Source: Clostridia bacterium (GTDB taxonomy: Bacteria > Bacillota > Clostridia > Oscillospirales > Acutalibacteraceae). From it: a stretch of 64,000 nucleotides of DNA. Positions 4,716 through 64,000 of this stretch are shown here, one piece after another (positions within the stretch are counted from its first letter, which is position 1; every line of letters starts with the position of its first letter). The notes beneath the pieces are model-generated. The model had not been told where the DNA came from. It did no database searches and worked only from the letters and a program-made list of their open reading frames with translations. The stretch lies in assembly GCA_017461625.1 (NCBI GenBank), contig JAFTXJ010000002.1, forward strand, positions 101,628 through 165,627, read 5' to 3'. The position numbers and the translations under genes are program-made.

Positions 4716-4729
4716 GCGAGGTCTTTTAA

Positions 4730-5803
4730 ATGGTAAACGGAAAATTCGGCGGTGCAGTTATCGGTTACGGCGGTATGGGTAGCTGGCACACAAGAAAAAT
4801 TACTCAGCAGATGCAGGATGATATTGAATTTATCGGAATTTATGACATTAATCCTGAACGTGCTGAAAAAGCAAGAGAAAACGGACTTTTTGCCTTTGAA
4901 TCAAGAGAAGCACTTCTCAGCGATGAAAGAATTGACTTTGTGATTGTTGCTACTCCAAACGATGTTCACCGTGAAATTGCAGTGGATGCAATGGCTCACG
5001 GTAAGCACGTTATCAGCGAAAAGCCTGTTACAACATGCAGTGAAGAGCTTGAAAAAATGATTGCCGCTTCAAAGCAATACGGCAGAATTTTTACAACTCA
5101 TCAGAACAGACGTTGGGACCCTGATTATCTTGTTATTAAAAAGCTTTATGACGAGGGCACTCTCGGCAGAGTTTTCAACATTGAATCAAAGGTTCACGGC
5201 TCAAGGGGAATCCCGGGTGACTGGCGAAATCAGAAGGCTCACGGCGGCGGAATGCTGTTTGACTGGGGCATTCATATTATCGACCAGGCACTTATGCTTC
5301 TTGACGGTATTGAGATTGAGTCTCTATATGCAAGGCTTGATAATGTTACCAATGAAGAAGTTGACGACGGCTTTAAGCTTGAGTTGAGATTTAAAAACGG
5401 TGTTGATTATCACGTTGAGGTTGGCACAAGCAACTTTATTGAGCTTAACCGTTGGTACATACAGGGCGAAAACGGAACTGCGATTATTAAGGACTGGGAT
5501 CTTAACGGTGAAATTGTAATGGTTACAGACTGGGAAAATAAAGACGCTGTGCCAATTCAGGCAGGTGTTGGTCTTACCAAAACAATGGCACCCAGAACCG
5601 ATGAAACTATTGACAGATATCCGCTTCCTTTTGTTGAAAATAAAGGCTTTGATGACAGAAGCGAATTTTATCGCAACTTTGTTGCAACACTCCGTGGGGA
5701 AGAAACACAAACTGTTACCCACGACCAGCAACGCAGACTTATTAAATTGATTGAAGCGATTTTTGAATCTGCCGAAGATAATAAGGTTATATATTTTGAA
5801 TAA
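4730..5803 (+). CDS. Gfo/Idh/MocA family NAD(P)-dependent oxidoreductase
   Basis: 357 residues. The N-terminal Rossmann fold carries the dinucleotide motif GYGGMGSWH (about 13-21) and the family signature EKPV (about 93-96). The GFO_IDH_MocA C-terminal domain follows, with the DWGIHIIDQ segment (about 180), where the His is the usual catalytic residue. It should oxidise or epimerise a sugar or cyclitol hydroxyl through NAD(P). It lies in the same operon as the isomerase/epimerase upstream. The substrate is unknown; myo-inositol 2-dehydrogenase is one possibility among several. Confidence 0.9.
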   Translation: MVNGKFGGAVIGYGGMGSWHTRKITQQMQDDIEFIGIYDINPERAEKARENGLFAFESREALLSDERIDFVIVATPNDVHREIAVDAMAHGKHVISEKPVTTCSEELEKMIAASKQYGRIFTTHQNRRWDPDYLVIKKLYDEGTLGRVFNIESKVHGSRGIPGDWRNQKAHGGGMLFDWGIHIIDQALMLLDGIEIESLYARLDNVTNEEVDDGFKLELRFKNGVDYHVEVGTSNFIELNRWYIQGENGTAIIKDWDLNGEIVMVTDWENKDAVPIQAGVGLTKTMAPRTDETIDRYPLPFVENKGFDDRSEFYRNFVATLRGEETQTVTHDQQRRLIKLIEAIFESAEDNKVIYFE

Positions 5804-13803: not shown

Positions 13804-13837
13804 GGGCATCTTCCAAAACGGAAGATGCCCGATTTTT
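13804..13837. terminator. Bidirectional intrinsic terminator
   Basis: GGGCATCTTCC / GGAAGATGCCC with T-runs on both sides, shared by the membrane protein and the convergent ABC exporter genes. Confidence 0.9.
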
Positions 13838-15632
13838 ATGCTTCTTCTTTATATTTTTCTGCCTGAAGGTTAAACATATATGCGTATTTGCCGTTTTTTG
13901 CCATAAGCTCTTCATGAGTTCCGCTTTCAACGATTTCGCCATTTTCAAGCATATAAATTACGTCTGCCATAACAGTGGTGGAAAGCCTGTGAGAGATGAA
14001 GATAACCGTTTTATCCTTTGCGGCTCTGCTCATTGCTTCGTTGAGCGAATATTCCGAAACGGGGTCAAGGTTGGCACTTGGCTCGTCAAGAATAGCAAAA
14101 GGACAGTCTTTATAAAAGGCTCGTGCAACGGCAACCTTCTGAGCTTCACCGCCTGAAAGAGAAACACCATTGTCATCAAATTCTCTTAAAAGAATAGAGT
14201 CGGCACCGTTTGGCAAGTCTTTGCTAAAGCTGCTTTCTTTAAGGCTTGCCATAACCTTTTCAATGTCGGGGTTTTCTTTCATAGCAACATTTTCGCCAAG
14301 TGTTGCACCAAAAAGTGAAAAGTCCTGAAAAACAGCCGCATAATTTTCGTGATATGAACGGATGTTCCAATCTTTAATATTCATACCGTCAACGGTAATT
14401 TCACCCTCGGTTACGTCATAAAGACGAAGCAACAGATTGGTAAGTGTAGTTTTACCTGCACCGTTGTAGCCTACAAGGGCGATTTTTTGATAAGGTTTAA
14501 TTTCAAGGTTAATGTTTTTGAGGGTTGGTTTATCGTTACCTGGGTAGGTGAATGAAACATTGTTCAGCTTGATTGTTTCAGGTTTTTTAAATTTCTTGGT
14601 AATTTCACCGTCTTTGATTTTTTCTTCAGCTGCCATAAATTTTTTGAACTTTTCAACATAAAGTCCGTTTTCTCTGAAAGTCATTGCAAACCAGCTTGTC
14701 AATGCAAAAACGCTGTTGCTTACGGCACTTACTCCGTTAAATGTTGCGGCAAAGCTGCCAAGACCAATTTCCTTTGTTACAATGGTTTTATAACCCATAT
14801 AAAGAGTAACACCGAAGCAAATCAAAATTGTAAGAGGCAAACTTTCTTGACAAAAGTATAACTGCCATTGCCTTTTAAGATAAGGTGAAATTGTGAAAAG
14901 ACGGTCAATAATGTTTTTCTTGTATCTTCTTTCAATCATTTCACCGGCCGGGTTAAGTCTCAATTCTTTTGCATAATCCTGCAAATAAAAAACACGTGAA
15001 AAGTAAAGATTTTTTCTGTCAAGGGGCGTCATAGCCTCTTTTTTGTTTACATTAACTTTAGCTATCAGCCTGCCGATCGGCACCATAATTCCTACACATG
15101 CGGCAATAAAAACAAAGCATATCGGGTCAATGGTGAGAATAACTGCGGTTATTGAAATTATGGACACAAGCTCTGTCACAAGGTTTCGTGTGCTTGTAAG
15201 GACACTTTCGGCTCTGTCCCCCATAGTATTCATCGCAAGTACAAAGTCGTTGTAAAATTCGGGGTTGTCGTAGGATTCAAAGTCCATTCGTGATGCCTTG
15301 TCATAGATGAGAGTGTAGAGCCTGTAATGAAGCTTTTCTTTTTGAAGAGGCAAATAGATTTCATAGAAAAGAGTGTTCAAAAGGTTACCGATAACAACCA
15401 CCGATGCAAAAATGATACAGGCAACAGCTATTCTGTAAAGGTCGGTCCCTTCTGTGACAACATCAATTATGTATTTAAGCAGTACAACATTTGATAAAAT
15501 CCACGGCAACGTGGAAAGCAGGTCTGAAATAATCAACGAGGGGAGAATCCACGGAGAATGCTTTGAAATAAAGCGAATCATAAACCAGTAATTTCTTATG
15601 CTGTGAGAGCTTTCAGCTTTTTTATTCTTCAT
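13836..15632 (-). CDS. ABC exporter, fused permease/ATPase (second of a pair)
   Basis: 598 residues. Six-helix ABC membrane domain (about 20-330) followed by the nucleotide-binding domain. Walker A is GYNGAGKTT, the Q-loop is in VFQDFSLF, the signature is LSGGEAQKVAVARA, Walker B is FAILDEPSANLDP and the switch is ISHRLS. The start at 15632 is preceded by AGGAGG; codons upstream lie within the previous gene. It overlaps that gene by 11 bases, so the two half-transporters are made together and probably form a heterodimer. Substrate unknown; this subgroup includes peptide and lipid exporters. Confidence 0.9.
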   Translation of the reverse strand: MKNKKAESSHSIRNYWFMIRFISKHSPWILPSLIISDLLSTLPWILSNVVLLKYIIDVVTEGTDLYRIAVACIIFASVVVIGNLLNTLFYEIYLPLQKEKLHYRLYTLIYDKASRMDFESYDNPEFYNDFVLAMNTMGDRAESVLTSTRNLVTELVSIISITAVILTIDPICFVFIAACVGIMVPIGRLIAKVNVNKKEAMTPLDRKNLYFSRVFYLQDYAKELRLNPAGEMIERRYKKNIIDRLFTISPYLKRQWQLYFCQESLPLTILICFGVTLYMGYKTIVTKEIGLGSFAATFNGVSAVSNSVFALTSWFAMTFRENGLYVEKFKKFMAAEEKIKDGEITKKFKKPETIKLNNVSFTYPGNDKPTLKNINLEIKPYQKIALVGYNGAGKTTLTNLLLRLYDVTEGEITVDGMNIKDWNIRSYHENYAAVFQDFSLFGATLGENVAMKENPDIEKVMASLKESSFSKDLPNGADSILLREFDDNGVSLSGGEAQKVAVARAFYKDCPFAILDEPSANLDPVSEYSLNEAMSRAAKDKTVIFISHRLSTTVMADVIYMLENGEIVESGTHEELMAKNGKYAYMFNLQAEKYKEEA

Positions 15633-17445
15633 TGTCAGCATCCTCCTCTCTGTAGCCTGATGCCTGGAGGGTAAACATGTTGCAATATTCTCCTCCAAGG
15701 TTCATTAATTCTTCGTGAGTGCCAGATTCAATAAGTTGACCTTGTGAAAAAACAAGAATGTTGTCGCTTCTTGTTGCACTTGAAAGACGGTGAGAGATAT
15801 AAACGACCGTTTTGTCTTTTGTGCCTTCCATAAGATTGTCATACATTTTTGACTCTGCAACGGGGTCAAGGGCTGATGACGGCTCATCAAGAATGGCAAT
15901 ATCAAAGTTTTTGGCAAACATTCTGGCAATTGTAACCTTCTGACTTTCACCGCCTGAAAGGAGTGCACCTTCTTCGTCAAATTCTCTTGTGAGAATGGTG
16001 TTTTCTTTTTCGGGTAAGGTTTCAATTTTGGAATAAACTCCGCTTTGCTTAAGTGCCTTTGTTGCCCTTTTAATATTATTTTCGTCAGTTTCTTCAATAA
16101 GAACATTTTCTGCAACGGTCATTGCAAAAATTCTGTAATCCTGAAAAACGCTGGCAAAGCACTCACGGTATTTTAACAAATCGTATTCTTTGATGTTTAT
16201 TCCATTATAAAGGATTTCACCTTCATCAACATCATAAAGGCGCATCATCAACTTTGAAAGAGTAGTTTTACCTGCACCGTTATGACCTACCACAGCAATG
16301 CTTTCGCCACGGTTAATTTTAAATGATACATTTGAAAGAGAGTTCTTGTCATTTCCGCTGTAATGGAATGAAACATTTTTGAACTCAAGGCTTTCAAATT
16401 CGCCGGGTATTTTGTCACCGCCGACGATTTTGGGTTCATAGTCGAGGAATTCTCTTAAATTCTGAACCCACAGGCAATGCTTTTGCTGCATTGTGAAATA
16501 GTAGGCAAGCTGATTTAATTTGTTTCTGCAGTTTGTAATTGCTGAAATTAGCACCGAAAATGCAGAAATTTCAATGTTTTGCAAAACAATCAGTCGGTAG
16601 CAACCATATGCAAAGCCGCCTGCAATTGGAATAACTTCACCAAAAAAGTCGCTTGCAACTTCAAGTACGGCAATTTTAAGGCCGTATTTTTTTATCATTT
16701 TAATGTTATTTTTAATTGCTTCTTTAAAGCGACGCTTAACAACATCAAAAATATTTGTGGTTTTAATCTCTTTTGCAAAATCCTTTAAAAGAACGGTTCT
16801 TTTGGTATAATCTTTCTGCCTTTCAAATGGGGTCATCATTTTTTCTTTTTCAAACTCAACATTGTTTCTTTTAACCCTGAAAAACAAAACGATAACAGGG
16901 CAAAGGAGGACCAGAAGCAGCCATGGGTCAAGTTTATAAAGGTAAATCGCCAGGAAAATTATGCTCACAACCGAGCCTAAAGTCCATGCTGAGCCTTCAA
17001 TGATTCTTTTGAAGCCCTGCTTTTCAACTACCCATGTTGCACGGTTATAGTTATCAAAAAAGTCGGGGTTTTCATAACAACCAAGTTCAACCTGCTGAGC
17101 CTTTTGGAAAATGAGGTTGTTTATGTATCCCTCACATTTAATTTCAAATTTCTCACGTACAGGGTGAAATGCTATGTAAGAAAATAAGTCAACGGCAATC
17201 TTACCGAAAACAATCAGACCGATTTTGATTGCAAATTCTTTAAAACTTCTTCCGCCTTCAATTATTGAAAGTGCAGTTTCAAGGAACATAACATTGAAAA
17301 CAACTGCGTAATAAACATTTTCAGCAATGTAAGCAAGGTAAATGATAATCATAGCAACAGGTGCGCTTTTAAGACCGCACTTTAACATGAAGCCGGTATT
17401 TTTGATTATATGTGCCTTTGCTTTGAAGTCAACGGCTTGTTGCAT
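15622..17445 (-). CDS. ABC exporter, fused permease/ATPase (first of a pair)
   Basis: 607 residues with the same layout as its partner: membrane domain about 25-320, then Walker A GHNGAGKTT, signature LSGGESQKVTIAR, Walker B IAILDEPSSALDP and ISHRLS. Both subunits keep the catalytic Glu after Walker B, so neither site looks degenerate. Ribosome site AAGGAAGTG before ATG 17445. The flavoprotein gene upstream on the same strand ends 34 bases away, so the three may be one operon. The pair is related in organisation to the exporter at 55635-59313 on the mobile element. Confidence 0.9.
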   Translation of the reverse strand: MQQAVDFKAKAHIIKNTGFMLKCGLKSAPVAMIIIYLAYIAENVYYAVVFNVMFLETALSIIEGGRSFKEFAIKIGLIVFGKIAVDLFSYIAFHPVREKFEIKCEGYINNLIFQKAQQVELGCYENPDFFDNYNRATWVVEKQGFKRIIEGSAWTLGSVVSIIFLAIYLYKLDPWLLLVLLCPVIVLFFRVKRNNVEFEKEKMMTPFERQKDYTKRTVLLKDFAKEIKTTNIFDVVKRRFKEAIKNNIKMIKKYGLKIAVLEVASDFFGEVIPIAGGFAYGCYRLIVLQNIEISAFSVLISAITNCRNKLNQLAYYFTMQQKHCLWVQNLREFLDYEPKIVGGDKIPGEFESLEFKNVSFHYSGNDKNSLSNVSFKINRGESIAVVGHNGAGKTTLSKLMMRLYDVDEGEILYNGINIKEYDLLKYRECFASVFQDYRIFAMTVAENVLIEETDENNIKRATKALKQSGVYSKIETLPEKENTILTREFDEEGALLSGGESQKVTIARMFAKNFDIAILDEPSSALDPVAESKMYDNLMEGTKDKTVVYISHRLSSATRSDNILVFSQGQLIESGTHEELMNLGGEYCNMFTLQASGYREEDADNEE

Positions 17446-53192: not shown

Positions 53193-53213
53193 AAAAACCT
53201 CCCAAAAACTCCT

Positions 53214-53251
53214 TAAAAAAACAAAACGGACAGCACTTAAGCACTGCCCGT
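53214..53251 (-). promoter_or_regulatory. Terminator-like hairpin in the leader of the MFS gene
   Basis: Minus strand ACGGGCAGTGC TTAA GTGCTGTCCGT then TTTTGTTTTTTT, ending about 22 bases before ATG 53192. It matches the terminator at 49495-49530 almost base for base. It may be an attenuator, or the terminator of a lost upstream gene. Confidence 0.6.
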
Positions 53252-53350
53252 CTGAGTGGTGCGGATGTTCATAACACAAGTAGTTCTCCGGCAATACATA
53301 TTCTATACTTCGTACTCTAATATATTTCCTCAGATATGGAGGAATACATA

Positions 53351-53629
53351 ATGTCAAATATCATTGAAGATTTCTATTATGGCAATATTGAGCCACAAGA
53401 AGTCAATTCAGAATTAACACCTAAACTCAAGAAGAAATTAAGTAGCCTTGCAGAGAAAGAAGAACAGCTTGCTGCAAGATTGAACGGTGAAAACAAGGAG
53501 CTGTTTCAAAGCTATGTAAGTGCCTATGTTGAATTTTCAACAACGAGTAACGCAGACAGCTTTATATCAGGCTTCAGACTTGGAGCAAAATTTATATACG
53601 ACACATTTGTTAAGAATATGAAAGGATGA
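53351..53629 (+). CDS. DUF6809-like small protein
   Basis: 92 residues, charged and helical, starting SNIIEDFYYGNIEP. This start is typical of a small protein family carried by Clostridia integrative elements. The middle is KKKLSSLAEKEEQLAARL, a helix with a coiled-coil tendency. ATG 53351 follows ATGGAGG; an upstream ATG at 53336 lies before this site. It precedes TnpV by 7 bases. Function unknown. Confidence 0.7.
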   Translation: MSNIIEDFYYGNIEPQEVNSELTPKLKKKLSSLAEKEEQLAARLNGENKELFQSYVSAYVEFSTTSNADSFISGFRLGAKFIYDTFVKNMKG

Positions 53630-53636
53630 ATGTACT

Positions 53637-54002
53637 ATGAAAAACAATACAAATATTCAATACAGACAAGTTGGAGATTTCAACATTCCTAACCTTACAA
53701 TACCACCCGAAGAAGCAAATATCAGACTCGGCAAATGGGGCATGTTACACAAGGACTATCTTCTTAAACACAAAAAAGTGGTGTTTACAACATTGCTTAC
53801 CCAAGGAAAACTTTATCAGCACTGTGCCGAAATAGAAAATCAGGCACGAGATATGTTTGATACTCTTGTTGAACAGATGAAAGAGGCTGTAGGTGTAACC
53901 AAAAAACTTAAAGAAGAAAATCAAATGGAATGGGTATGCCGTATGCAAAATATTGAAGCAATAGCAAGAGAAATCGTTAATAGCGAAATAATATTCAATT
54001 AG
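53637..54002 (+). CDS. tnpV: TnpV-type transposon-encoded protein
   Basis: 121 residues. LGKWGMLHKDYLLKHKKVVFTTLLTQGKL (about 31-60) and ENQMEWVCRMQNIEAIAREIV near the C-terminus are the marks of TnpV, a small protein of unknown role found on Tn-type and conjugative elements of Clostridia. Co-transcribed with the DUF6809-like gene and ended by a strong terminator. Identification is by pattern memory, moderately secure. Confidence 0.78.
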   Translation: MKNNTNIQYRQVGDFNIPNLTIPPEEANIRLGKWGMLHKDYLLKHKKVVFTTLLTQGKLYQHCAEIENQARDMFDTLVEQMKEAVGVTKKLKEENQMEWVCRMQNIEAIAREIVNSEIIFN

Positions 54003-54009
54003 TAAAATC

Positions 54010-54047
54010 GGCGACAGGGTGAAAATTCCCTGTCGCCAATCATTTTT
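54010..54047 (+). terminator. Intrinsic terminator after tnpV
   Basis: GGCGACAGGG / CCCTGTCGCC with an 8-base loop, then AATCATTTTT. Confidence 0.9.
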
Positions 54048-54054
54048 GTTCGGA

Positions 54055-54083
54055 TTGATTTTTTATGTAGAAAATAGTATAAT
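54055..54083 (+). promoter_or_regulatory. Promoter of the LytTR/GHKL system
   Basis: TTGATT, 17-base spacer, TATAAT, 31 bases before ATG 54115. No LytTR repeat is seen next to it. Confidence 0.65.
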
Positions 54084-54114
54084 TATCTATAACTTGCTGA
54101 AAGGAACGATTACT

Positions 54115-54828
54115 ATGCTCAATATTGCCATTTGCGATGATGAACCTGTTGAAATTGAATATCTGACATCGCTTGTGCAGGAATGGGTAAAAGCAACTAA
54201 AACATCCGTAAATATTTCGGATTTTGCGAGTGCGGAAGCGTTTCTTTTCAAGTATGAGGAAGATAAAAACTTCGATATTCTTCTGCTCGATATTCAGATG
54301 AAAGCTATGGACGGCATTGAGCTTGCCGAGAAAATCCGTGAAACCAACAGCGGTATGCAGATTGTTTTCATAACCGGTTTCCCCGACTATATCTCCCGTG
54401 GATATGATGTTTCGGCACTTCACTATCTGATTAAACCCGTTGAGAAAGAAAAGCTTTCTGAGGTTCTTTCAAGGGCTTGCGATAATCTGAAGAAAGAAGA
54501 GAAATTCATTCTGCTTTCGATTGATAATGAAAGCTGTAAAATCAATCTGAAAGATATAATTTATGTTGAAGCCTTCGGACATTCAAGCTGTGTTGTTTGT
54601 GAAAACGGTGAGCATAATGTTAAGCTCCCGATTTCGGATATTTCTAAAATGCTTGATAAGAGTTTCATTCAATGCCACCGTTCATACATAGCAAATATTC
54701 AGCATATTTCAAGAATTACCAAAACAGATGTAGTCTTTGACAACGGCAAAAGCGTTCCTGTTTCAAGGCGAATGTATAATGATGTCAATATGGCATTCAT
54801 CAATTTTTACAGAGGTATCAGTCAATGA
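54115..54828 (+). CDS. LytTR-family response regulator (AgrA/VirR type)
   Basis: 237 residues. Receiver: acidic pair CDDEP (about 7-11), phospho-Asp in ILLLDIQMKAMDG (about 60), Thr in VFITG and Lys in HYLIKPVEK. The LytTR DNA-binding domain (about 140-235) has VEAFGHSSCVV, FIQCHRSYIANI and VPVSRRMY. Such regulators bind pairs of 9-bp direct repeats with a 12-bp gap. ATG 54115 has AAAGGAACG. It overlaps the kinase start by 4 bases. A repeat pair matching this rule lies at 55547-55576. Confidence 0.93.
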   Translation: MLNIAICDDEPVEIEYLTSLVQEWVKATKTSVNISDFASAEAFLFKYEEDKNFDILLLDIQMKAMDGIELAEKIRETNSGMQIVFITGFPDYISRGYDVSALHYLIKPVEKEKLSEVLSRACDNLKKEEKFILLSIDNESCKINLKDIIYVEAFGHSSCVVCENGEHNVKLPISDISKMLDKSFIQCHRSYIANIQHISRITKTDVVFDNGKSVPVSRRMYNDVNMAFINFYRGISQ

Positions 54829-55568
54829 ATTATTGGATTATTGCCGCAGCAGTTGCAGTTGTTTTAATTGCAATAGTTCTGGCGGTTATTTTCACAAGGA
54901 GATATATCCGCAATTTTACAGACAAGCGTATTGCCGAATATCAGAATGACCTCATCACAAAGCATTGCGAGGAAGTTCAGAACATTTATAAAACAATGCG
55001 TGGTTGGCGTCACGACTATAAAAATCACATTCAGGTTATGCGTGCATCCCTTGAAATGGGCAACCTTACCGAACTTGGCAACTATCTCGGTGAACTCTCG
55101 GTTGACCTGAACACTGTTGATACGGTTGTCAAAACCGGCAACGTAATGGCGGATGCCATTCTCAACAGTAAGCTTGCACTCTGCAAAGCAAGAAATATTC
55201 CTTATGAGGTTACTGCAACCATACCCGAAGAATGTAGTGTCAACGATGTTGAACTTTGCGTTATCATCGGTAATCTGCTTGACAATGCAATGGAAGCCTG
55301 CGAAAAGATCGAGGACAAAACAAAGAGATTTATCCGTGTTTATATCGGACTTTTCAAACAGCAGCTTTACATAAACGTTACCAACTCAATGATTGGAACT
55401 CCCGTTAAAAGAGGTAAGGCATATAAATCTTCAAAGGGTGAAAATCACGGCTTTGGACTTATGAGAGTTGACAGAATTGCCGATAAATACAACGGCTTTG
55501 TCAACCGTCAGTTTGAAGACGGAGTGTTTGGAACGGAGATTATGTTACCGTTCGTGCAAAGCAAATAA
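54825..55568 (+). CDS. GHKL sensor histidine kinase with a single membrane helix
   Basis: 247 residues. One transmembrane helix (about 4-23), then a coil (about 28-60) and a GHKL kinase: phospho-His in WRHDYKNHIQVM (about 65), N box IIGNLLDNAMEACE, G box HGFGLMRVDRIADKY. The usual AgrC-type kinase has 6-7 membrane helices; here almost no extracellular part remains, so it is unlikely to sense a peptide alone. It might respond to the adjacent ABC exporter or through its membrane helix. Cognate partner of the LytTR protein. Confidence 0.9.
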   Translation: MNYWIIAAAVAVVLIAIVLAVIFTRRYIRNFTDKRIAEYQNDLITKHCEEVQNIYKTMRGWRHDYKNHIQVMRASLEMGNLTELGNYLGELSVDLNTVDTVVKTGNVMADAILNSKLALCKARNIPYEVTATIPEECSVNDVELCVIIGNLLDNAMEACEKIEDKTKRFIRVYIGLFKQQLYINVTNSMIGTPVKRGKAYKSSKGENHGFGLMRVDRIADKYNGFVNRQFEDGVFGTEIMLPFVQSK

Positions 55569-55576
55569 CCGTTCGT
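55547..55576 (+). promoter_or_regulatory. LytTR-type direct-repeat binding site
   Basis: ACCGTTCGT at 55547-55555 and again at 55568-55576, start-to-start 21 bp and 12 bp apart. This matches the published LytTR half-site rule [TA][AC][CA]GTTN[AG][TG]. The identity runs on through TGCAAA. The repeats lie at about -74 to -45 from the promoter below, the usual activator position. The first copy is inside the end of the kinase gene. Local duplication of the gene end is an alternative reading. Confidence 0.65.
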
Positions 55577-55582
55577 GCAAAA

Positions 55583-55606
55583 GCAACCCGCTGAGGTTGC
55601 TTTTTT
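55583..55606 (+). terminator. Terminator between the kinase and exporter genes
   Basis: GCAACC CGCTGA GGTTGC then TTTTTT. It ends the two-component transcript and overlaps the core promoter of the exporter. Confidence 0.8.
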
Positions 55607-55608
55607 GG

Positions 55609-55614
55609 TATAGT
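55609..55614 (+). promoter_or_regulatory. -10 element of the exporter promoter
   Basis: TATAGT with no good -35 at the proper distance (the position falls in the terminator stem), as expected for an activator-dependent promoter. Confidence 0.45.
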
Positions 55615-55634
55615 CATACTGTGAGGTGAAACGG

Positions 55635-57482
55635 ATGAAAAAAGCCAAAACAAAAAAATATTCGGCATTCAATAATTTAAAATTTATAGCAAAGCTGTTT
55701 TACGGATGGGATAAAGGCTTTATCTTTATGCATCTTATCAACGTACCGCTGAAGGTTTTTTCGGAAATGGTAACCGTACTGTTAGCCCCGCTTTTAGTGT
55801 GGTTTATAGAACAAAAAACAAGTTTTGGAATTATTGCTGCTGCCGTAATTGGAATACAGCTTACCTATATTGCCATAGGTGTGCTTCGTCAATATTACTA
55901 TAAAGAAGACTTTAAAAGACGCCCTCAGATTATCAAGCACCTTGATTTGATGCTTAGCAACAAAATTATGAATATGGATTTTGAGCTTCTGGAGTCCCCC
56001 GATGGAAAGGCAAAATATCAGAAAGCAAAAAATTCGCTCTCATATTACGGAATATATACGGTGTTTGAGCAGTTTTACAATTTCTTTGTTGTTCTGCTGA
56101 GTGTCGGAAGCTTCGGTGCCATTATTATGACACTAAACCCGTTAATTCTGATTTGTGTTATAGGTATGAGGTTGCTGTCTTTACTTGTTGCATTTCTGGA
56201 AGAAAAACTGACGGACACAACCAAAGATCCAGAAGCAATGGCAGACAGACATTTGAATTATCTTACAAAGGCTTCAATGGACTTTGCCGTTGCAAAGGAT
56301 GTTCGTATTTATGGCTTGCGTTCATTTTTACAGAGTTTAAGCGAGCATTATATTTTTGAAAAATTTAAATGGGTAAAAAAGAAATACAAGTATTATCTTA
56401 TAACCGACAGCATCGGTCTTGTTATTTCAACGGCTACAGAAATCGGTGTTTATATTTTCCTGATTTACAAGATGTACAAAAGCGGTATGAGCGGTGCGGA
56501 TTTTGTGCTTTATTCTTCTGCTTTGATTGCCTTCGGAGTATGGTGCCGTGACATAGGCTATAATTTTGAATGCGTCAACAGGTGCACCCATTATATCAAC
56601 GATTTACGGGAATTTCTTGACATTGAAAACCGGTTAAAAAACAAAGACGGTAAAACTTTGCCTGACAAAAAGCCTTATTCAATAGAACTGAAAAATGTTT
56701 CGTTCATCTATCCCGAAGCCGAAAATAAAATTCTTGATAACATTAATCTGAAAATCAATGCAGGTGAAAACATAGCTTTTGTCGGTGTAAACGGTGCAGG
56801 TAAAACAACTCTCGTAAAGCTCATTTGCGGACTTTATAGACCTACAAGCGGTCAGATTCTTGTAAACGGTGTTGATATTGCCGAATTTAATCGTGATGAA
56901 TACTACGCTGCAATTTCCGCCGTTTTTCAGGATGTCCGCGTTATGCCCTGCTCAATTCTTTCCAATATTTCAATGCTTCCCGAAGAAGAGACCGACATAG
57001 AAAGAGTTTTGAATTGTATTGAGCTTGCGGGACTTTCCGAAAAAATAGGCAGTTTACCTGATGGAATACATACACTTCTCGGTAAAAACATCAATGATGA
57101 TGCGGTTGAACTTTCGGGCGGTCAGCTTCAAAGGTTGCTTCTGGCAAGAGCAATTTACAAGGATGTTCCGATTCTGATTCTTGATGAGCCGACTGCTGCA
57201 CTGGACCCAATTGCAGAAAATGATATGTACCTAAAATACAATGAATTTTCCAGGGGTAAAACCTCAATTTATATTTCACACAGACTTTCATCAACCCGTT
57301 TTTGTGACAGAATTGTGCTTATTAACAATACTGTTATTGCCGAAACAGGCACTCATGAGGAGTTGATGAAAAAAGACGGCAAATATGCTGAAATGTTCCG
57401 TGTGCAGAGCAAATATTACGAAAAGGAGGTACAGGCAGATGAAGTCTTCGGAAAAAAGCAGAACATTGAATCAGGAAATTAA
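55635..57482 (+). CDS. ABC exporter half-transporter 1 on the mobile element
   Basis: 615 residues. Six-helix membrane domain (about 25-330) and nucleotide-binding domain with Walker A GVNGAGKTT, Q-loop VFQDVRV, signature LSGGQLQRLLLARA, Walker B ILILDEPTAALDP and ISHRLS. No peptidase C39 domain, so it does not cut leader peptides. ATG 55635 has GAGGTGA. It overlaps the next gene by 44 bases, implying a heterodimer. The location behind LytTR repeats suggests induction by the adjoining two-component system. Candidates for cargo are peptides, lipids or drugs. Confidence 0.92.
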   Translation: MKKAKTKKYSAFNNLKFIAKLFYGWDKGFIFMHLINVPLKVFSEMVTVLLAPLLVWFIEQKTSFGIIAAAVIGIQLTYIAIGVLRQYYYKEDFKRRPQIIKHLDLMLSNKIMNMDFELLESPDGKAKYQKAKNSLSYYGIYTVFEQFYNFFVVLLSVGSFGAIIMTLNPLILICVIGMRLLSLLVAFLEEKLTDTTKDPEAMADRHLNYLTKASMDFAVAKDVRIYGLRSFLQSLSEHYIFEKFKWVKKKYKYYLITDSIGLVISTATEIGVYIFLIYKMYKSGMSGADFVLYSSALIAFGVWCRDIGYNFECVNRCTHYINDLREFLDIENRLKNKDGKTLPDKKPYSIELKNVSFIYPEAENKILDNINLKINAGENIAFVGVNGAGKTTLVKLICGLYRPTSGQILVNGVDIAEFNRDEYYAAISAVFQDVRVMPCSILSNISMLPEEETDIERVLNCIELAGLSEKIGSLPDGIHTLLGKNINDDAVELSGGQLQRLLLARAIYKDVPILILDEPTAALDPIAENDMYLKYNEFSRGKTSIYISHRLSSTRFCDRIVLINNTVIAETGTHEELMKKDGKYAEMFRVQSKYYEKEVQADEVFGKKQNIESGN

Positions 57483-59313
57483 CCTGATTATCCGTGGATT
57501 AAAACTGTTTTCAACTTTTACACCTCATTTTATTTCGTATTCAATAGGTTACAGCTTTTTCGAAAGCCTGAGTTGGTTCTTAAATATTTTTCTTGCTGCA
57601 GAATTGGTGGATGAAGTCACAGGTGAACGCAGTCTTCAGCGATTGATTATTCTTCTCTGTCTTCTTGCTTTTTCGCAGGTTGTGTTAATGGTTCTCTGTA
57701 AGTTTTGCTATAATAAAGCGAGAGTTGGAGATTTGATTTCAAAACAATGGACGGAGGTCTATCTTAATAACAAATCTTTTTCAATGGATTATAAGAATAT
57801 GGAGGACCCGAAAATCCGTCTTGAACGGCAGTCTATCACAAAAAATGCCGATGTTGGCGGACTGAATATTCTGGTCAATACTTTTATAGAACTGTTTTAC
57901 GATATATTTCAGATTATAGGCGGATTAATACTTCTTTCCGATTTTCTTGTTAAGCGTTCACCAAAAATATTAACGGGCATTTCTGCTTTTGCTGATTCAT
58001 CTCTCTGTGCAGTATGCTTTTTCATTTTGATGGTTGCGGCGGCTGTCGGTTCTTATTTCATAAGCGAAAAATACGGCAAAAAAATCTACACGGTTCAAAG
58101 AAGAATACCGGTAGTTGAAAGAATGATGAGATATTACACGGATGATTATCTCGATGACAGCAAATCCTGCAAAGATGTTCACATTTTTAATCAGAAAAAT
58201 CTGATACTTAAAAGTTTTGAGAATGCCTTTGTGAATTGGCGTGAACTCAACAAACAGACTGCTGAAATCGGCTTAAAAAAGGGCGCAACTAACAGAATAA
58301 TTACCGGTTCCCTTGTTACAATAATTTATCTTTTTGTTGCTTTCAAAGCATACGTGGGTGCATTCGGATTAGGCGGATTTATTAAGTACGTTGAGCCTCT
58401 TGAAAGACTGATGTACTGTGTAACACACTTTGCCGAAAGCACAGCTTCACTCAAAAGTAATAATCTTTATCTTGAAAAGGTTTTTGAGTATATTGACATT
58501 CCCACCGATATGCATTACGGTACTATTCCCACCGAAAAACGAATGGATAATAAATATGACATTGAATTTCACAATGTCAGCTTCAGATATCCGGGTACCG
58601 ATAAATATGCGATTAAAAACCTCAACCTTAAATTCAAGGTCGGTGACAGGATTGCGGTTGTTGGCATGAACGGAAGCGGTAAAACAACAATGATAAAACT
58701 GCTTTGTCGTCTATACGACCCGACAGAGGGATACATCACACTTAACGGCATAGATATTCAGAAATACGATTATGAAGATTATCTGAAACTGTTCTCTGTA
58801 GTATTCCAAGATTTCAAGCTATTCTCATTCTCTGTCGGAGAGAACGTTGCGGCAAGCATTGACTATGATGAAGAAAAAGTATGGTCATCGCTTGAAAAAG
58901 CAGGTATGCTTGAACGAGTAAAAGCTATGCCTAAAGGTCTCAAAACTCCTGTTTACAAGGATTTTGAAGAAGACGGCGTTGAAATCTCCGGCGGTGAAGC
59001 ACAGAAACTCGCAATCGCAAGAGCACTCTATAAAGATGCTGCGTTTGTAATTCTCGACGAACCCACCGCATCACTCGACCCTATCGCCGAACACGAAATC
59101 TATTCCCGCTTCAATGATATGGTTAAGGATAAAACAGCGGTTTATATCTCCCACCGTCTGTCATCCTGCCGCTTCTGTGACAGAATCCTTGTATTCAATA
59201 ACGGTCAGTTAATTCAGGACGGCTCACACGAAAATCTCCTCGAAAATTCTGACGGTAAATACAGTGAACTTTGGAACGCTCAGGCGCAGTATTACGCTGA
59301 AACCAAAGTGTAA
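57439..59313 (+). CDS. ABC exporter half-transporter 2 on the mobile element
   Basis: 624 residues with the same domain order as its partner: Walker A GMNGSGKTT, Q-loop VFQDFKLFS, signature ISGGEAQKLAIARA, Walker B FVILDEPTASLDP and ISHRLSS. ATG 57439 was chosen because AAAGGAGGT precedes it; an in-frame start at 57385 is deep within the previous gene. Both ATP sites appear intact. The extracellular loops are short. Compare the chromosomal pair at 13836-17445, which has the same architecture without a regulatory gene beside it. Confidence 0.92.
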   Translation: MKSSEKSRTLNQEINLIIRGLKLFSTFTPHFISYSIGYSFFESLSWFLNIFLAAELVDEVTGERSLQRLIILLCLLAFSQVVLMVLCKFCYNKARVGDLISKQWTEVYLNNKSFSMDYKNMEDPKIRLERQSITKNADVGGLNILVNTFIELFYDIFQIIGGLILLSDFLVKRSPKILTGISAFADSSLCAVCFFILMVAAAVGSYFISEKYGKKIYTVQRRIPVVERMMRYYTDDYLDDSKSCKDVHIFNQKNLILKSFENAFVNWRELNKQTAEIGLKKGATNRIITGSLVTIIYLFVAFKAYVGAFGLGGFIKYVEPLERLMYCVTHFAESTASLKSNNLYLEKVFEYIDIPTDMHYGTIPTEKRMDNKYDIEFHNVSFRYPGTDKYAIKNLNLKFKVGDRIAVVGMNGSGKTTMIKLLCRLYDPTEGYITLNGIDIQKYDYEDYLKLFSVVFQDFKLFSFSVGENVAASIDYDEEKVWSSLEKAGMLERVKAMPKGLKTPVYKDFEEDGVEISGGEAQKLAIARALYKDAAFVILDEPTASLDPIAEHEIYSRFNDMVKDKTAVYISHRLSSCRFCDRILVFNNGQLIQDGSHENLLENSDGKYSELWNAQAQYYAETKV

Positions 59314-59373
59314 AGCAAAAAGCCAGCTTGTGTTAAATGCGAGTTAACTTGAATTGTATAATAATTATCTATG

Positions 59374-59409
59374 TGGTGTCGGCAAAAACCGACACCATCT
59401 TTTCTTTTT
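59374..59409 (+). terminator. Terminator of the exporter operon
   Basis: TGGTGTCGG CAAAAA CCGACACCA then TCTTTTCTTTTT. Confidence 0.9.
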
Positions 59410-59420
59410 AGAAAAAGTTC

Positions 59421-59449
59421 TTGACAAATGAACAAGTGTTCTGTATAAT
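59421..59449 (+). promoter_or_regulatory. Perfect sigma-A promoter with internal palindrome
   Basis: TTGACA, 17-base spacer, TATAAT: full consensus. The spacer holds the palindrome GAACA-AG-TGTTC (59430-59441), a likely repressor site. Confidence 0.85.
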
Positions 59450-59455
59450 AATAAA

Positions 59456-59691
59456 ATGGTAAATAATGTATTTGCCCTACAACTGAATACAATCTGAAAC
59501 ACATATTTTTTACTTATTGGCTTTATGCCACACATATTATCTGACCGAAGAAAGTATAGTCCGATACCCGGTCAGTAACATACGGACAGTCAGAGCTTAA
59601 AGTTTAAGCCGTTACATAGTTTCAGTGCAAACTGTGCGAGAGGATGAAATGTCCTCCCGCTATTTGTGCTGTCTATGTGACGGCTTTTTTT
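59456..59691 (+). ncRNA. Structured non-coding RNA candidate on the mobile element
   Basis: A transcript of about 235 nt is predicted from the perfect promoter to a terminator. Nested stems: CTGACC/GGTCAG (59541-59575), GCTTAAA/TTTAAGC (59595-59609), GAGGA/TCCTC (about 59639-59655) and the closing stem AGCCGTTACATAG / CTATGTGACGGCT (59607-59685) with T7. The only ORF at its 5' end is 13 codons and leaderless, ATG at about +1 (MVNNVFALQLNTI). It is more compact and stem-rich than a leader and is followed by no gene for 600 bases. It does not match an RNA class that I can name. It could regulate copy number or replication as an antisense or decoy RNA, or be cargo. Confidence 0.5.
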
Positions 59692-60285
59692 GTTGTGCAA
59701 TTTAAACGAAAATAAAAAAGTTTCAGAAAAAGTCGTTTTTTCCGCCTTGCTAAATGCCTACCAATTAGAAGGGTGTGTTTTTGTGCAACGATACAAAATT
59801 ACAAATTTTTGAAAAAAGTTTTGAAAAAACGTACAAAAATCGGCGTTTTAAAAGTCACCCCTTGAGGGATGTTTTTCTCTCGTGCACCTTGACAACTGAA
59901 TGACCGTCCGAAAGTGATACGACGCCAAGACCTCTAAGGAGCGAGCGTGAAGACGTTGCGGTGAGATTCCGGGGCAGGAACTATTTCGGGTGAAACGGCA
60001 AAAGCCTGTATAAAGGATACTACAGCCACCTTGAAAAATTCTCTGATATATCAGGAACATTTTCAGACACTCAATTCCCATTTATATATAGATTAAGTTT
60101 GTTCATTTTCCTGCGTACATACGTACACTTGTACGCACGTACGCAGAGAAAACGCTTAAATCTCATATATATTTTCTTCATTAAGGTGAGCAAGACATCA
60201 AAATTTGTGCGGTATATAAGTGGAACTACATACACTGACCTACCTAACGGCAAGGAGGTTAAATAAAACGAAAGGAGTAAAACAT
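59692..60285. other. Gene-free region ahead of the replication gene
   Basis: No credible protein gene in about 590 bases. The left part is A/T-rich. A GC-richer block at about 59885-60035 begins CACCTTGACAACTGAATGA and contains GGTGAGATTCCGGGG; it looks conserved or structured, with small stems such as CTGTA/TACAG, and resembles the leader or origin blocks found upstream of replication genes on Clostridia elements. An inverted repeat at 60111-60146 follows. Three Shine-Dalgarno-like segments occur after 60250. Confidence 0.4.
60111..60146. repeat. 36-bp inverted repeat of GTAC units
   Basis: CTGCGTACATACGTAC / GTACGCACGTACGCAG: two 16-base arms with two mismatches and a short centre. It is 140 bases upstream of the coupled mini-ORF and primase/helicase gene. 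It could be a replication-origin element or operator for that gene. Confidence 0.5.
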
Positions 60286-60321
60286 ATGAAGCCGAAGATA
60301 GGAGGAATAAGAAATGAGTAA
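60286..60321 (+). CDS. 11-residue ORF coupled to the primase gene
   Basis: MKPKIGGIRNE, with AAAGGAG before ATG 60286. Its stop overlaps the ATG of the primase/helicase by 8 bases, and the primase ribosome site GGAGG lies inside it. It may be a translational-coupling peptide or the residue of a truncated gene. Confidence 0.4.
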   Translation: MKPKIGGIRNE

Positions 60322-61669
60322 AAATTCAGATGACAAATTTTCAAATGACGAGTTTGGTGTTGAGGGTCCTGCGTGGGCAGACGGAAAAATAATCAACGAG
60401 GCAATATTCTGTGAGGAGTTTCTGAATAAGCATAAGATTATCTTCTCGGGCGGTTCGTTCTTTACTACCGAAGGCAGGGTTGTTGATGAAACACCTCTTA
60501 AGAGAATGGTGTTCGATGACCTTAAAATCTGTGCGGTAGCAAATGTACCTCAGAAAATTTCCAATATCGTTGAGCTTCTGAAAATAGAAGCACTTGATGA
60601 AACCTTTGCACCCGAAACAGACAGAATACACCTTGAAGACGGCACACTTTATTTTAACGGTTGCTTTGTCGATATCAAAGAAAGTGTTGTACGAACAAGG
60701 CTTCCTGTAAGGTACAATCCTTATGCACCGAAGCCTGAACGATGGCTGTCTTTTCTCGACGAACTGCTTTATCCGGAGGATATACCGACACTTCAGGAGT
60801 TTATCGGTTACTGCCTGATACCGAGCAATAAAGGTCAGCGAATGATGGTTATCAAAGGTAACGGTGGTGAAGGTAAATCGCAGATAGGTGCTGTTATGAC
60901 AACACTTTTCGGCAGCAATATGAAAGACGGAAGTATTGGTAAAATCTCCGAGAACAGATTTGCAAGAGCAGACCTTGAGCATATCTTACTGTGCATTGAT
61001 GATGACCTTCGTATGGAGGGACTCAAGCATACAAACTATGTCAAATCCATTGTAACCGCACAAGGAAAGATGGACCTTGAAAAGAAGAACAAGCAAAGCT
61101 ATCAGGGATATATGTACGCAAGACTTCTTGCTTTCAGCAACGGTGACCTGCAGGCTATGTTTGATAAAAGTGACGGCTTTTTCAGACGTCAGCTTGTACT
61201 GACAACCAAGGACAAAAACGCTGAAAGAATTGATGACCCTCATATAGCAGATAAAATGCGTGAGGAAATCGAAGGTATATTCCTTTGGGCATTTGAAGGC
61301 TTGCAGAGATTACTCTCAAACAACTTTCAGTTTACAGAAAGTGAACGGGCAATAAGCAACCGTGAGACCGTCAAGCGTAATAATGTCAATGCAGTTGAGT
61401 TTATGGAGTCAGACGGCTACTTCGCATTTGCAGAAGATAAATCAATAACCTCAAAGGATTTGTATGTGATTTACAAGCTGTGGTGCGAAGAAAATGCCTT
61501 GTCGCCTATGAGTTCAAGAAGCCTGAGCGACTTTCTGATTGCCAATGAAAATAAGTACGGTATTAAAAGCAGTAACAATGTTTACAACAGAGAACACCGC
61601 AGAGTAAGAGGCTTTATTGGCATAGAGGCGACGGCATCACTGTTTATGAATAATCTGCAAGGTTCATAA
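60314..61669 (+). CDS. Phage/plasmid-type primase-helicase (D5/SF3 family)
   Basis: 451 residues. Superfamily-3 helicase core: Walker A GNGGEGKS (about 183-190), Walker B-like LLCIDDDL, motif C LLAFSNGD (about 275), and sensor FFRRQLVL. The D5 N-terminal-like helicase domain precedes it, and a C-terminal primase-associated winged helix (DLYVIYKLWCEENALSPMS) follows. The full-length relatives often have a primase domain at the N-terminus; here only 130 residues precede the helicase. It should start replication of the element after excision or transfer. Ribosome site AGGAGGAAT. Confidence 0.88.
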   Translation: MSKNSDDKFSNDEFGVEGPAWADGKIINEAIFCEEFLNKHKIIFSGGSFFTTEGRVVDETPLKRMVFDDLKICAVANVPQKISNIVELLKIEALDETFAPETDRIHLEDGTLYFNGCFVDIKESVVRTRLPVRYNPYAPKPERWLSFLDELLYPEDIPTLQEFIGYCLIPSNKGQRMMVIKGNGGEGKSQIGAVMTTLFGSNMKDGSIGKISENRFARADLEHILLCIDDDLRMEGLKHTNYVKSIVTAQGKMDLEKKNKQSYQGYMYARLLAFSNGDLQAMFDKSDGFFRRQLVLTTKDKNAERIDDPHIADKMREEIEGIFLWAFEGLQRLLSNNFQFTESERAISNRETVKRNNVNAVEFMESDGYFAFAEDKSITSKDLYVIYKLWCEENALSPMSSRSLSDFLIANENKYGIKSSNNVYNREHRRVRGFIGIEATASLFMNNLQGS

Positions 61670-61718
61670 ATGGTGAGTATAAAGTTTTACGGGGTACAGG
61701 GTGGTTTTACAAAAACAG

Positions 61719-61750
61719 CCCTGTTGGGTGCAATTCGCAAATTGCAGGGC
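61719..61750. repeat. Hairpin upstream of the relaxase
   Basis: GCCCTG / CAGGGC enclosing GCAATT-CGC-AAATTGC, followed by AACGCCCTATAACCCCC. Possible part of the transfer origin. Confidence 0.45.
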
Positions 61751-61774
61751 AACGCCCTATAACCCCCTCGGAGA

Positions 61775-61842
61775 GCGCAACAGCATCTTTTGATAGCCTT
61801 ATGGATGTCAAAAGTGCTTTTGCGTTACTTTTGACAAAAGTA
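61775..61842. other. Candidate origin of transfer (oriT)
   Basis: Long imperfect inverted repeat GCGCAACAGCATCTTTTGAT (61775-61794) against GTCAAAAGTGCTTTTGCG (61807-61824), then the palindrome ACTTTTG-A-CAAAAGT (61828-61842). It lies directly ahead of the relaxase reading frame, where MOBV elements keep oriT. The nick site is not determined. Confidence 0.5.
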
Positions 61843-63042
61843 ACAAAACTTGAGACGAAATATATTTTATATAAGGATGTGATAAGTATAAGAAAAACAA
61901 TATCGTTCAGCGTAGGCAAAGGCTCTCTTACTCATAATCGCAGAGATTTCATTGCACAGAATGTTGACTCTGACAGAACACAGATGAACATTGAATACTG
62001 TAATGAAAATCTTGAGCAGGTGTATCATCAGATGTTTGATGATGCTCTTCAAAGATTCAATGATAAGCAAAAACGAGCCGACAGAAAGATAGAAAGCTAT
62101 TATGATAAAATCCGCACCGGCAAACAAGAAAAGCTCTTTCACGAGGTTATTGTTCAGATTGGTAACAGAGAGGATACAAACTCAAAATCAGCCGACAGCG
62201 AAATAGCTGTCAGGATTCTTGATGAATATATGAAACATTTTCAGGAACGTAACCCGAACCTGAGAATCTTCTCTGCTCACCTTCATCTTGATGAAGAAAC
62301 GCCGCATCTGCACATTGACTTTGTTCCCTTTGTAACAAACAGTAAAAGAGGTCTTGATACCCGTGTTTCACTTAAGCAAGCACTTTTATCTCAGGGTTTC
62401 AAGGGAGAGAGTAAATTTGAAAGTGAGTGGAGCAAATGGGCATTATCCGAAAAACAGCAATTAGCTTCCGTTATGGAAAAGCACGGTGTTGAATGGGAGC
62501 AGCTCGGCACTCATAATGAGCATTTGAGTGTTTATGATTACAAGAAAAAAATGCGTGCCGAAGAGGTGCAGGAGCTTGAAGAAAAGGCGGAAAGCCTAAC
62601 AGAAAAAATTAACGATATGCTCGATTTCGAGGTTCAGGTGGAAAGCTTTACTAATATGTTTTATGACGAAGAAGAGTACAAGCTCCCCGAACCGAGTTCC
62701 TTAATGTCGGCAAAGACCTATAAAACCAAAATTGTTGAGCCTCTATTTAACCGTATTATTGCTCTTGCAAAAACGGCAGTTAAGATGTGCTTTGAGCTTA
62801 AAGCTCAGGTTGAGAACTTAAAGCTGTGGGGCACCCGTGATAAGAATATGGTTAAACATCTCACGAAAGAAAATGATGCTCTATATACCGAAAATCAAAA
62901 GCTGCATAAAGAGGTTAAAGAGTATAAACTCCTTAAACGAATTTTCGGTGAAGAAAAAATATCAGAACTTGTTAAAACAGCAAAAGAAACAGAACAGGCT
63001 CAAAGAAAATCAAAATCTAAGAAATATGAAAGGAATAGATAA
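61801..63042 (+). CDS. MOBV-family relaxase (Mob/Pre plasmid recombination enzyme)
   Basis: 413 residues as read from ATG 61801, but the first 25-30 codons overlap the candidate oriT and have no ribosome site. The conserved part begins RKTISFSVGKGSLTHNRRDF. An almost perfect Shine-Dalgarno (AAGGATGTGAT, 61873-61883) is followed at the right distance by ATA 61888, not ATG; a GTG at 61879 lies within the site. The nickase motif HLHLDEETPHLHIDF (about 165) has the three-His metal site of MOBV. The C-terminal third is coiled coil (about 245-400). It cuts one strand at oriT and pilots it for mobilization. Confidence 0.9.
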   Translation: MDVKSAFALLLTKVTKLETKYILYKDVISIRKTISFSVGKGSLTHNRRDFIAQNVDSDRTQMNIEYCNENLEQVYHQMFDDALQRFNDKQKRADRKIESYYDKIRTGKQEKLFHEVIVQIGNREDTNSKSADSEIAVRILDEYMKHFQERNPNLRIFSAHLHLDEETPHLHIDFVPFVTNSKRGLDTRVSLKQALLSQGFKGESKFESEWSKWALSEKQQLASVMEKHGVEWEQLGTHNEHLSVYDYKKKMRAEEVQELEEKAESLTEKINDMLDFEVQVESFTNMFYDEEEYKLPEPSSLMSAKTYKTKIVEPLFNRIIALAKTAVKMCFELKAQVENLKLWGTRDKNMVKHLTKENDALYTENQKLHKEVKEYKLLKRIFGEEKISELVKTAKETEQAQRKSKSKKYERNR

Positions 63043-63969
63043 ATGAATAAAGAAGAAAATTTTATTAACACACTGTTTGAGAAAACAGAAGAATCCAAAG
63101 AAACAGAGGTGGTAGAGCCTCGTACAACCGAAATCGTAAATATGTCAGTCGGAAGCATTGTCCCCAATCTCAAAAATCCGTATAAATACCGTGAGGAAGA
63201 TATGAAGCCGTTGGAAGATAGCATCCGTGAAAACGGTATAATACAGCCTCTAATGGTGCGAAAAGACGGTAAGGCTGATGTGTATGAAATCATATCAGGA
63301 CACAGACGTTTCCTTGCAGCAACAAGGCTTGAAATGACAGAGGTTCCCGTTGTTGTATTGGATATCACAAAGGAAGAATCGGATATTATCCTCGTTGACA
63401 GTAATCTGCACCGAGAGCACATTCTCCATTCAGAAAAAGCCTTCGCTTACAAGATGAAAATGGATGCCCTTAAAAAGCAAGGTAAACGCACGGATTTAAC
63501 TTCGGACCAAGTCGGACCGAAGTTATCTGCGGGTGAGATTTCTGATACTGACAGTGCTTCTCAGGTAAAAAGATATATCCGTCTGACAAAGCTTATCCCC
63601 AAACTTCTTGCAATGGTGGATGAGAATAAAATCTCTTTCTCTGTAGGTGTTGAGCTTTCGTATCTCACAAAAACAGAACAAACAAACCTATTTGATTTTA
63701 TTCAGAAAGAGCTTTGTACTCCTTCACTCTCACAAGCACAGAAGCTGAAAAAGTTATCTCAGGAGGGTAAACTGAATGTTGAGGAAATATCTTCCATTAT
63801 GAAACAGCCGAAAGCAAATCAGGTTGTTACAGTTAAAATCCCCGATGATAAAATCAGTAAATATCTCAAGCCTACTGCTACTGTAAAGGAAAAAGAGGAT
63901 TTCCTTGCGAAGGCTGTTGAGTATTACGGAAAGCATCTTATGCGACAGAAAGACAGAGGTGCGAGATAA
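63043..63969 (+). CDS. ParB/RepB/Spo0J-type partition protein
   Basis: 308 residues. ParB nuclease-like domain with NPYKYREEDMKPLEDSIRENGIIQPLMVR and the signature EIISGHRRFLAA (about 85-97), then NLHREHI. The helix-turn-helix centre (about 160-200) includes SASQVKRYIRLTKLIPKLL. In the element it probably supports maintenance or gene regulation after excision. AAAGGAATAGATA precedes ATG; it abuts the relaxase gene and overlaps the next by one base. Confidence 0.92.
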   Translation: MNKEENFINTLFEKTEESKETEVVEPRTTEIVNMSVGSIVPNLKNPYKYREEDMKPLEDSIRENGIIQPLMVRKDGKADVYEIISGHRRFLAATRLEMTEVPVVVLDITKEESDIILVDSNLHREHILHSEKAFAYKMKMDALKKQGKRTDLTSDQVGPKLSAGEISDTDSASQVKRYIRLTKLIPKLLAMVDENKISFSVGVELSYLTKTEQTNLFDFIQKELCTPSLSQAQKLKKLSQEGKLNVEEISSIMKQPKANQVVTVKIPDDKISKYLKPTATVKEKEDFLAKAVEYYGKHLMRQKDRGAR

Positions 63970-64000
63970 TGACAGAAAAGATTGTATCCTTTTGGGAGTA
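63969..64000 (+). CDS. Start of a gene cut by the window end
   Basis: ATG 63969 overlaps the parB-like stop by one base (TAATG), and the frame is open to the end (MTEKIVSFWE). Product not identifiable from 10 residues. Confidence 0.6.
   Translation, partial: MTEKIVSFWE

Follow-up and report, generated by a model that had tools for sequence, protein, structure and literature searches.

Genes at the locus

In the window, the whole 64,000-nucleotide stretch of gut-bacterial DNA analyzed here, we detected a regulator, kinase, and exporter module on the plus strand. Its first gene (54115..54828) encodes a response regulator that joins a receiver to a LytTR DNA-binding domain (PF00072, 4.6e-18, and PF04397, 8.7e-23, both above cut-off), the combination that defines LytTR response regulators. 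The next (54825..55568) encodes a 247-aa GHKL histidine kinase (PF14501, 6.9e-23; PF14689, 2.3e-10; PF02518, 2.9e-07) with, by eye, one N-terminal hydrophobic segment; its Pfam matches are to GHKL/HATPase and SpoB-type domains only, with no sensor domain among them. Two adjacent ABC exporter halves follow (half 1, 55635..57482; half 2, 57439..59313), each with an ABC ATPase domain (PF00005), which is the arrangement of an MsbA-like heterodimeric exporter, and we infer that they pair. The best NCBIfam match of the halves is MsbA-like at a score below cut-off, half 1 matches P-glycoprotein and MsbA chains, and no peptidase domain was found in either half in Pfam. The exporter may secrete, or protect the cell against, a toxic peptide or drug-like compound. 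Another ABC half-exporter pair, about 31% identical to half 1, lies on the minus strand at window positions 13821-17220.

The regulator gene is preceded by a promoter-like TTGATT-17-TATAAT (54055..54083, plus strand) with 10 of 12 consensus matches, in a region where promoter-like sites overall are no commoner than in shuffles. Only two plus-strand open reading frames (ORFs) of at least 20 aa overlap positions 53950-54150, the regulator frame and TnpV, and neither is a peptide gene.

Repeat pair and promoter at the kinase–exporter junction

Two exact copies of ACCGTTCGT lie at the end of the kinase gene (55547-55555 and 55568-55576), 12 bp apart as the initial annotation had it, and they are the only exact copies in the 64-kb window. 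The window has a single such pair with a gap of 9-15 bp, and none of 100 shuffles has one. A lone half-site carries little meaning, since single half-sites with at most one mismatch numbered 12 in the window against 6.7 expected. We take ACCGTTCGT to match the published LytTR half-site rule, [TA][AC][CA]GTTN[AG][TG]. The full repeat is longer than first noted, two copies of ACCGTTCGTGC with a period of 21: the upstream half-site (55547..55557, plus strand) lies within the last kinase codons, and the downstream half-site (55568..55578, plus strand), 12 bp past the first 9-mer, begins in the kinase stop codon. With up to three mismatches allowed, this extended 11-mer pair has a single occurrence in the 1.85-Mb draft genome (87% complete).

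Downstream lies an extended -10 element, TGGTATAGT (55606..55614, plus strand), whose hexamer TATAGT (55609-55614) is separated from the second 9-mer by 32 bp. Paired 9-bp direct repeats with a gap of about 12 bp, placed ahead of a promoter, are the hallmark of a LytTR direct-repeat operator, and the locus has them. The TATAGT -10 proposed after the repeats is in place, with the correction that it is an extended -10 lacking a recognizable -35; a two-hexamer promoter scan listed nothing at this position. Between the site and the -10, a hairpin followed by a T-run (55579..55606, plus strand; stem 55579-55588 with 55595-55604) is a probable terminator of the regulator–kinase mRNA. Its predicted stability is -12.4 kcal/mol (z -2.1; 3 of 200 shuffles were equally stable), and a terminator scan did not include it among its listed terminators. 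The hairpin at 55579-55604 runs into the extended -10, bearing out the suggestion that the -10 overlaps the terminator of the two-component genes. Similar hairpins occur between site and -10 in many relatives, not all.

Conservation among relatives

We gathered relatives without using the site in three ways: the exporter protein against 60 related genomes (30 loci taken), the exporter protein against genome contigs (36 loci), and the regulator–kinase DNA against 250 family genomes, of which 28 matched and supplied 20 loci. The short-kinase loci, with the window and near-duplicates included, made up a set of 34. Dropped from it were L110 (kinase cut by a contig end), L114 (the same place as L012), L102 (identical with the window), L034 (kinase not detected), L041 and L043 (members of the sister family described below, kinase not detected), and the long-kinase loci L005, L006, L039, L042, L044, L046, L047, L060, L119, and L121. 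Each locus was scored with a position-weight model built without its own site and compared with 100 shuffles.

Looking for the repeat pair in front of homologous exporters had been named as a check, and the pair is there, mostly with the 12-bp and 32-bp spacings. A period-21 pair scored above all 100 shuffles near the kinase–exporter junction in 31 of 34 loci, a count that overstates independence (true n below 34) because near-duplicates such as L037, L038, and L105 were retained. An extended -10 (TGnTAnnnT) lies exactly 32 bp after the second half-site in 28 of the 34; L011 has it at 33 bp, and L056, L062, L112, L115, and L120 have none by the rule used. Three loci miss the pair: L053 has a degenerate pair with its -10 still at 32 bp, L112 is a lone kinase with no regulator or exporter found beside it, and L115 has, by eye, a spacing of 11. 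The pair is kept while the regulator diverges to about 35-50% identity, and the distance to the -10 stays mostly fixed. Model-free autocorrelation at the kinase end in 20 loci also singled out offset 21 from offsets 12-60 (mean identity 9.0 vs 6.34, sd 0.26), with at least 8 of 10 bases identical in 17 loci; with four near-copies dropped, 14 of 16 still pass.

We also scanned as much as 400 bp upstream of the regulator gene for repeats like those of the window family, the only kind sought there; L002, L011, and L015 were too short and L112 lacks a regulator. No pair was found in 30 of the 31 loci tested, window included, where the best score was -15.3 compared with 33.7 at the exporter promoter; the exception, L115, has a weak pair above shuffles. 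The circuit consequently looks feed-forward. Of the closed circuit first envisaged, the site pair before the exporter is supported, with no sign in these 30 loci of a loop back to the regulator genes.

Searching by pattern alone (RCMRTTCRTSC-N10-RCMRTTCRTSC) across 394 genomes of the order gave 23 matches, one of them the window, spread over 21 genomes, and the reversed-pattern control gave 0 among the matches listed for the same genomes. An exporter-like frame follows 18 of the 23 (that of L083 is weakly similar), and regulator and kinase lie directly upstream in 16, one of which, L082, ends before any exporter; four (L076, L084, L087, and L090) have neither regulator–kinase nor exporter. A class-wide search of 391 genomes yielded eight matches in seven genomes, four of them new. 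The fetched loci contain 47 distinct relaxed pairs, 46 with a -10 candidate, and the gap is exactly 32 bp in 34 of these, 31 in three, and 33 in three. At about 1501-1580, L076 and L084 contain short arrays made up of GCAATTCATG-like repeats, and we found no exporter in their vicinity.

Site classes and a sister family

Two main half-site classes were detected, ending in TTCGTGC (the window) and TTCGTCC; those of L051 and L054 end in TTCGCGC, and ACACTTTTG is a further operator named beside the window and TTCGTCC operators. Site class tracks the clade of the adjacent regulator. LytTR position 156 is H in 17/17 TTCGTGC loci and N in 20/20 TTCGTCC loci, and position 188 is H in 17/17 of the former compared with G in 20/20 of the latter; these 37 loci include three classed by eye and leave out eight duplicate rows and the unclassed L053, L108, L110, and L115. 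From the spacing of the residues, the window regulator's H156 and H188 would correspond to H169 and H200 of AgrA. Published work reports sequence-specific contacts by AgrA H169 and R233 and a minor-groove contact by N201 (PMC12482169) and describes base contacts by H200 as possible (PMC4227749). We rejected this covariation of residue and site as independent proof of recognition: the TTCGTCC class is a single clade in the tree, which shows one evolutionary change, and many other residues differ between the classes too.

A sister family keeps the 12-bp gap with a different repeat, ACACT(A/T)TTG-N12-ACACT(A/T)TTG, and has a kinase of about 440 aa where one was detected. Its sites are at L039:1753-1930, L041:1617-1800, L042:1455, L043:3573, L044:2323, L046:492, L060:1829, and L047:1805. 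One site copy precedes the exporter, with a -10-like hexamer at 32 bp in 9/9 loci, which are close relatives of each other, eight of the nine having another -10 candidate nearby. In seven loci a second site copy precedes an ORF of 22-24 aa with a strong ribosome site, e.g., MTNLKVYVMDCNLNRSVVLSALIC, and such an ORF is present in eight. Three of these peptides were tried in Pfam and NCBIfam and gave no match; the ORF is a candidate for a signal peptide or export substrate.

Probable control of the exporter

The pair at 55547-55578 is very probably an operator at which the adjacent LytTR regulator activates the exporter, given its conservation (31/34), the 32-bp spacing to the -10 (28/34), and the results of the pattern-only search. 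The putative operator holds by all computable tests and is conserved in a wide family. Computation gives the position, spacing, and conservation of the pair and finds no second such pair in the draft genome; we infer binding, its dependence on phosphorylation, and activation rather than repression. The adjacent kinase would phosphorylate the regulator (54115-54828), which could then bind both half-sites, set on the same face of the DNA at a distance of two helical turns, and recruit RNA polymerase to an extended -10 promoter with no recognizable -35, switching on both ABC half-exporters. The hairpin and T-run between operator and -10 could terminate the regulator–kinase transcript. The exporter appears to be a separate unit, because the regulator–kinase genes are preceded by their own promoter-like sequence, and the hairpin and T-run come after the operator. 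Taken as a whole, this explanation, in which the adjacent regulator binds the pair and activates the exporter, has a high probability.

A tandem duplication confined to the end of the kinase gene and carrying no regulatory meaning was the refuting alternative named at the outset, and the window itself lends it some color: the kinase frame of this lineage covers the upstream half-site, so that copy 1 encodes the last kinase residues and copy 2 lies directly after, as is likewise seen in L032, L033, L036, and L103. As a general cause it is rejected, and we give it hardly any weight, for 20 of the 31 pairs lie clear of the kinase codons, 17 beginning past the stop and 3 at its last base, and the pair outlasts the divergence of the regulator with its -10 distance mostly fixed. 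The draft genome has four LytTR genes, and a non-adjacent LytTR regulator, or several, could instead bind the site; with the regulator–kinase genes directly upstream of most pattern matches (16/23) and site class following the clade of the adjacent regulator, we regard this as improbable.

The regulator might also repress the exporter from the site, or act on readthrough at the terminator hairpin that separates the site from the -10 here and in many relatives. This seems slightly less probable still than binding by another regulator: the predicted hairpin is weak in some relatives, L048, L050, and L111 among them (-1.5 to -2.9 kcal/mol), and the missing -35, the upstream position of the site, and the 32-bp spacing fit an activated promoter.

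A possibly exchangeable exporter core

The window, L032, L033, and L096 are alike in regulator (89-93% aa identity), kinase (94-97%), and the ATPase part of half 2 (92-97%). Their DNA, about 90% identical at first, drops to about 45-75% just past the -10, where the differing part begins at about 55610-55685 depending on the relative, and regains about 90% near 58480-58520; the transmembrane part of half 2 differs, and its ATPase part is conserved from about 58480. The core enclosed in this way is 96-99% identical in aa between L032 and L033, whereas other pairs of the four share 36-42% in the transmembrane parts. At fourfold sites L032 and L033 differ by 24% in the regulator, 36% in the kinase, and 19% in the half-2 ATPase part compared with 1-7% in the core, while the window and L032 differ by 19-36% in the arms and 57-77% in the core. 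Slow change would not easily produce both patterns; recombination of the core, which the L032–L033 pair shows, can. In L036, whose arm is more distant (72-80% aa), the core is of a fourth kind. Out of 17 other full loci, L035 has the core most like that of L096 (52-55% aa); its regulator and kinase match their L096 counterparts at only 48% and 62%. The titles of L032, L033, and L036 mark them as metagenome assemblies, so chimeric contigs might still be a source of the mosaic.

We tentatively suggest, as an idea with rather less than an even chance of being right, that recombination between a constant arm of regulator, kinase, operator, and promoter and a second arm, the half-2 ATPase part, swaps the substrate-determining core, and that the kinase reads the state of the exporter or membrane and not a specific ligand. 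The latter is suggested by the lack of a sensor domain and by kinase identity of 94-97% across cores sharing 36-42% of transmembrane residues. If so, each new core would come immediately under the same LytTR control. Different cores behind a constant control arm amount to a naturally occurring set of pumps governed by a single switch, so that one can test which substrates the pumps carry and what cue the sensor responds to.

Comparison with known systems

LytTR activation from direct repeats is a kind of control already known, as at the AgrA, ComE, and VirR promoters, which carry direct repeats spaced by 12 bp. An agr/com-type assignment, which calls for a polytopic kinase that senses a peptide and for a peptide gene, does not fit, with a 247-aa kinase of one hydrophobic segment (by eye) and no peptide ORF at 53950-54150 on the plus strand. 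Bce-type modules place a kinase without an extracellular sensor domain beside a winged-helix regulator, which activates the transporter, and a MacB-type permease. The window likewise has a kinase without an extracellular sensor domain, a regulator, and a transporter side by side, but the regulator is of the LytTR type, the kinase is of the GHKL/SpoB type, and the transporter consists of two MsbA-like half-exporters with C-terminal ATPase domains instead of a MacB/FtsX-type permease with a separate ATPase.

The closest promoter likeness is to hdrRM of Streptococcus mutans, which is described as 9-bp repeats 12 bp apart, 8 bp, TGGTCA, 15 bp, and TGCTATAGT (PMC6193735); mobility shifts there required the repeats, and repeat mutations cut reporter activity. 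Summed from that table entry, hdrRM shares with the window the 12-bp spacer and the 32 bp to the extended -10 hexamer. It differs in having a -35-like hexamer, at the spot where the window has AACCCG and no recognizable -35. The window also differs in its true two-component regulator with a receiver, its ABC exporter pair as target, and its lack of an autoregulation site. The LytTR regulatory systems (LRS) that PMC6193735 links to ABC transporter genes resemble the window in LytTR regulator, membrane partner, transporter, and operator geometry. Their partner is a membrane inhibitor and they are autoregulated, whereas the partner in the window is a GHKL kinase and the separate promoter-like sequence lacks the repeats (-15.3 vs 33.7), placing it outside the LRS definition.

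New to the searches made are the kinase without a sensor domain, the lack of an autoregulation site, and the apparently exchangeable exporter core; in open-licence PMC literature, no title or abstract start described the operator family or the exchange of ABC exporter cores. Widespread sensor–exporter loci of Clostridia, without description in the literature searched, are thereby tied to a specific operator, and regulator targets become predictable because the operator is readable from sequence.

Mobile element and neighborhood

A mobilizable element backbone with a P4-type primase, a MobV-like relaxase, and a ParB-like gene (59354..64000, plus strand) follows the module and is cut by the contig end. 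The relaxase is under the NCBIfam cut-off and over the Pfam cut-off for Mob_Pre. In a congener, a relaxase 98% identical to this one lies ahead of a large serine recombinase, and a recombinase is present in element copies L138 and L140. L140, on contig C18 of the same genome, is a sister copy of the element with the whole backbone and a 558-aa large serine recombinase and adjoins what by eye looks like a tRNA gene; its homology to the window begins at 59354, just after the exporter stop. To the left of the module, a TnpV/DUF6809 unit (about 53213-54008) recurs in L139, where a serine-recombinase frame at 2928-5447 seems to continue into a chromosomal gene, perhaps across the element end.

The module had been placed on the mobile element, and what is seen is adjacency only; lying between two mobile units, it may be cargo. 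Its closest relatives occupy other neighborhoods. The sole full-length match to the regulator–kinase DNA among the 250 family genomes is in a different genus, which suggests horizontal spread. Against plasmids, the exporter protein gave distant relatives only, all below 60% identity among the best 5000 records, and the regulator–kinase DNA had no match in a plasmid collection. The locus matched four records of a phage collection over at most about 510 bases, and no kinase relatives were confirmed in viral contigs. Genes matching anti-phage defence models adjoin the module in three relatives: ThsA in L032 (8990-10915), PDC-S73 and OLD/AriA in L033 (605-2920 and 8962-10935), and IetA and IetS in L096 (8353-11820).
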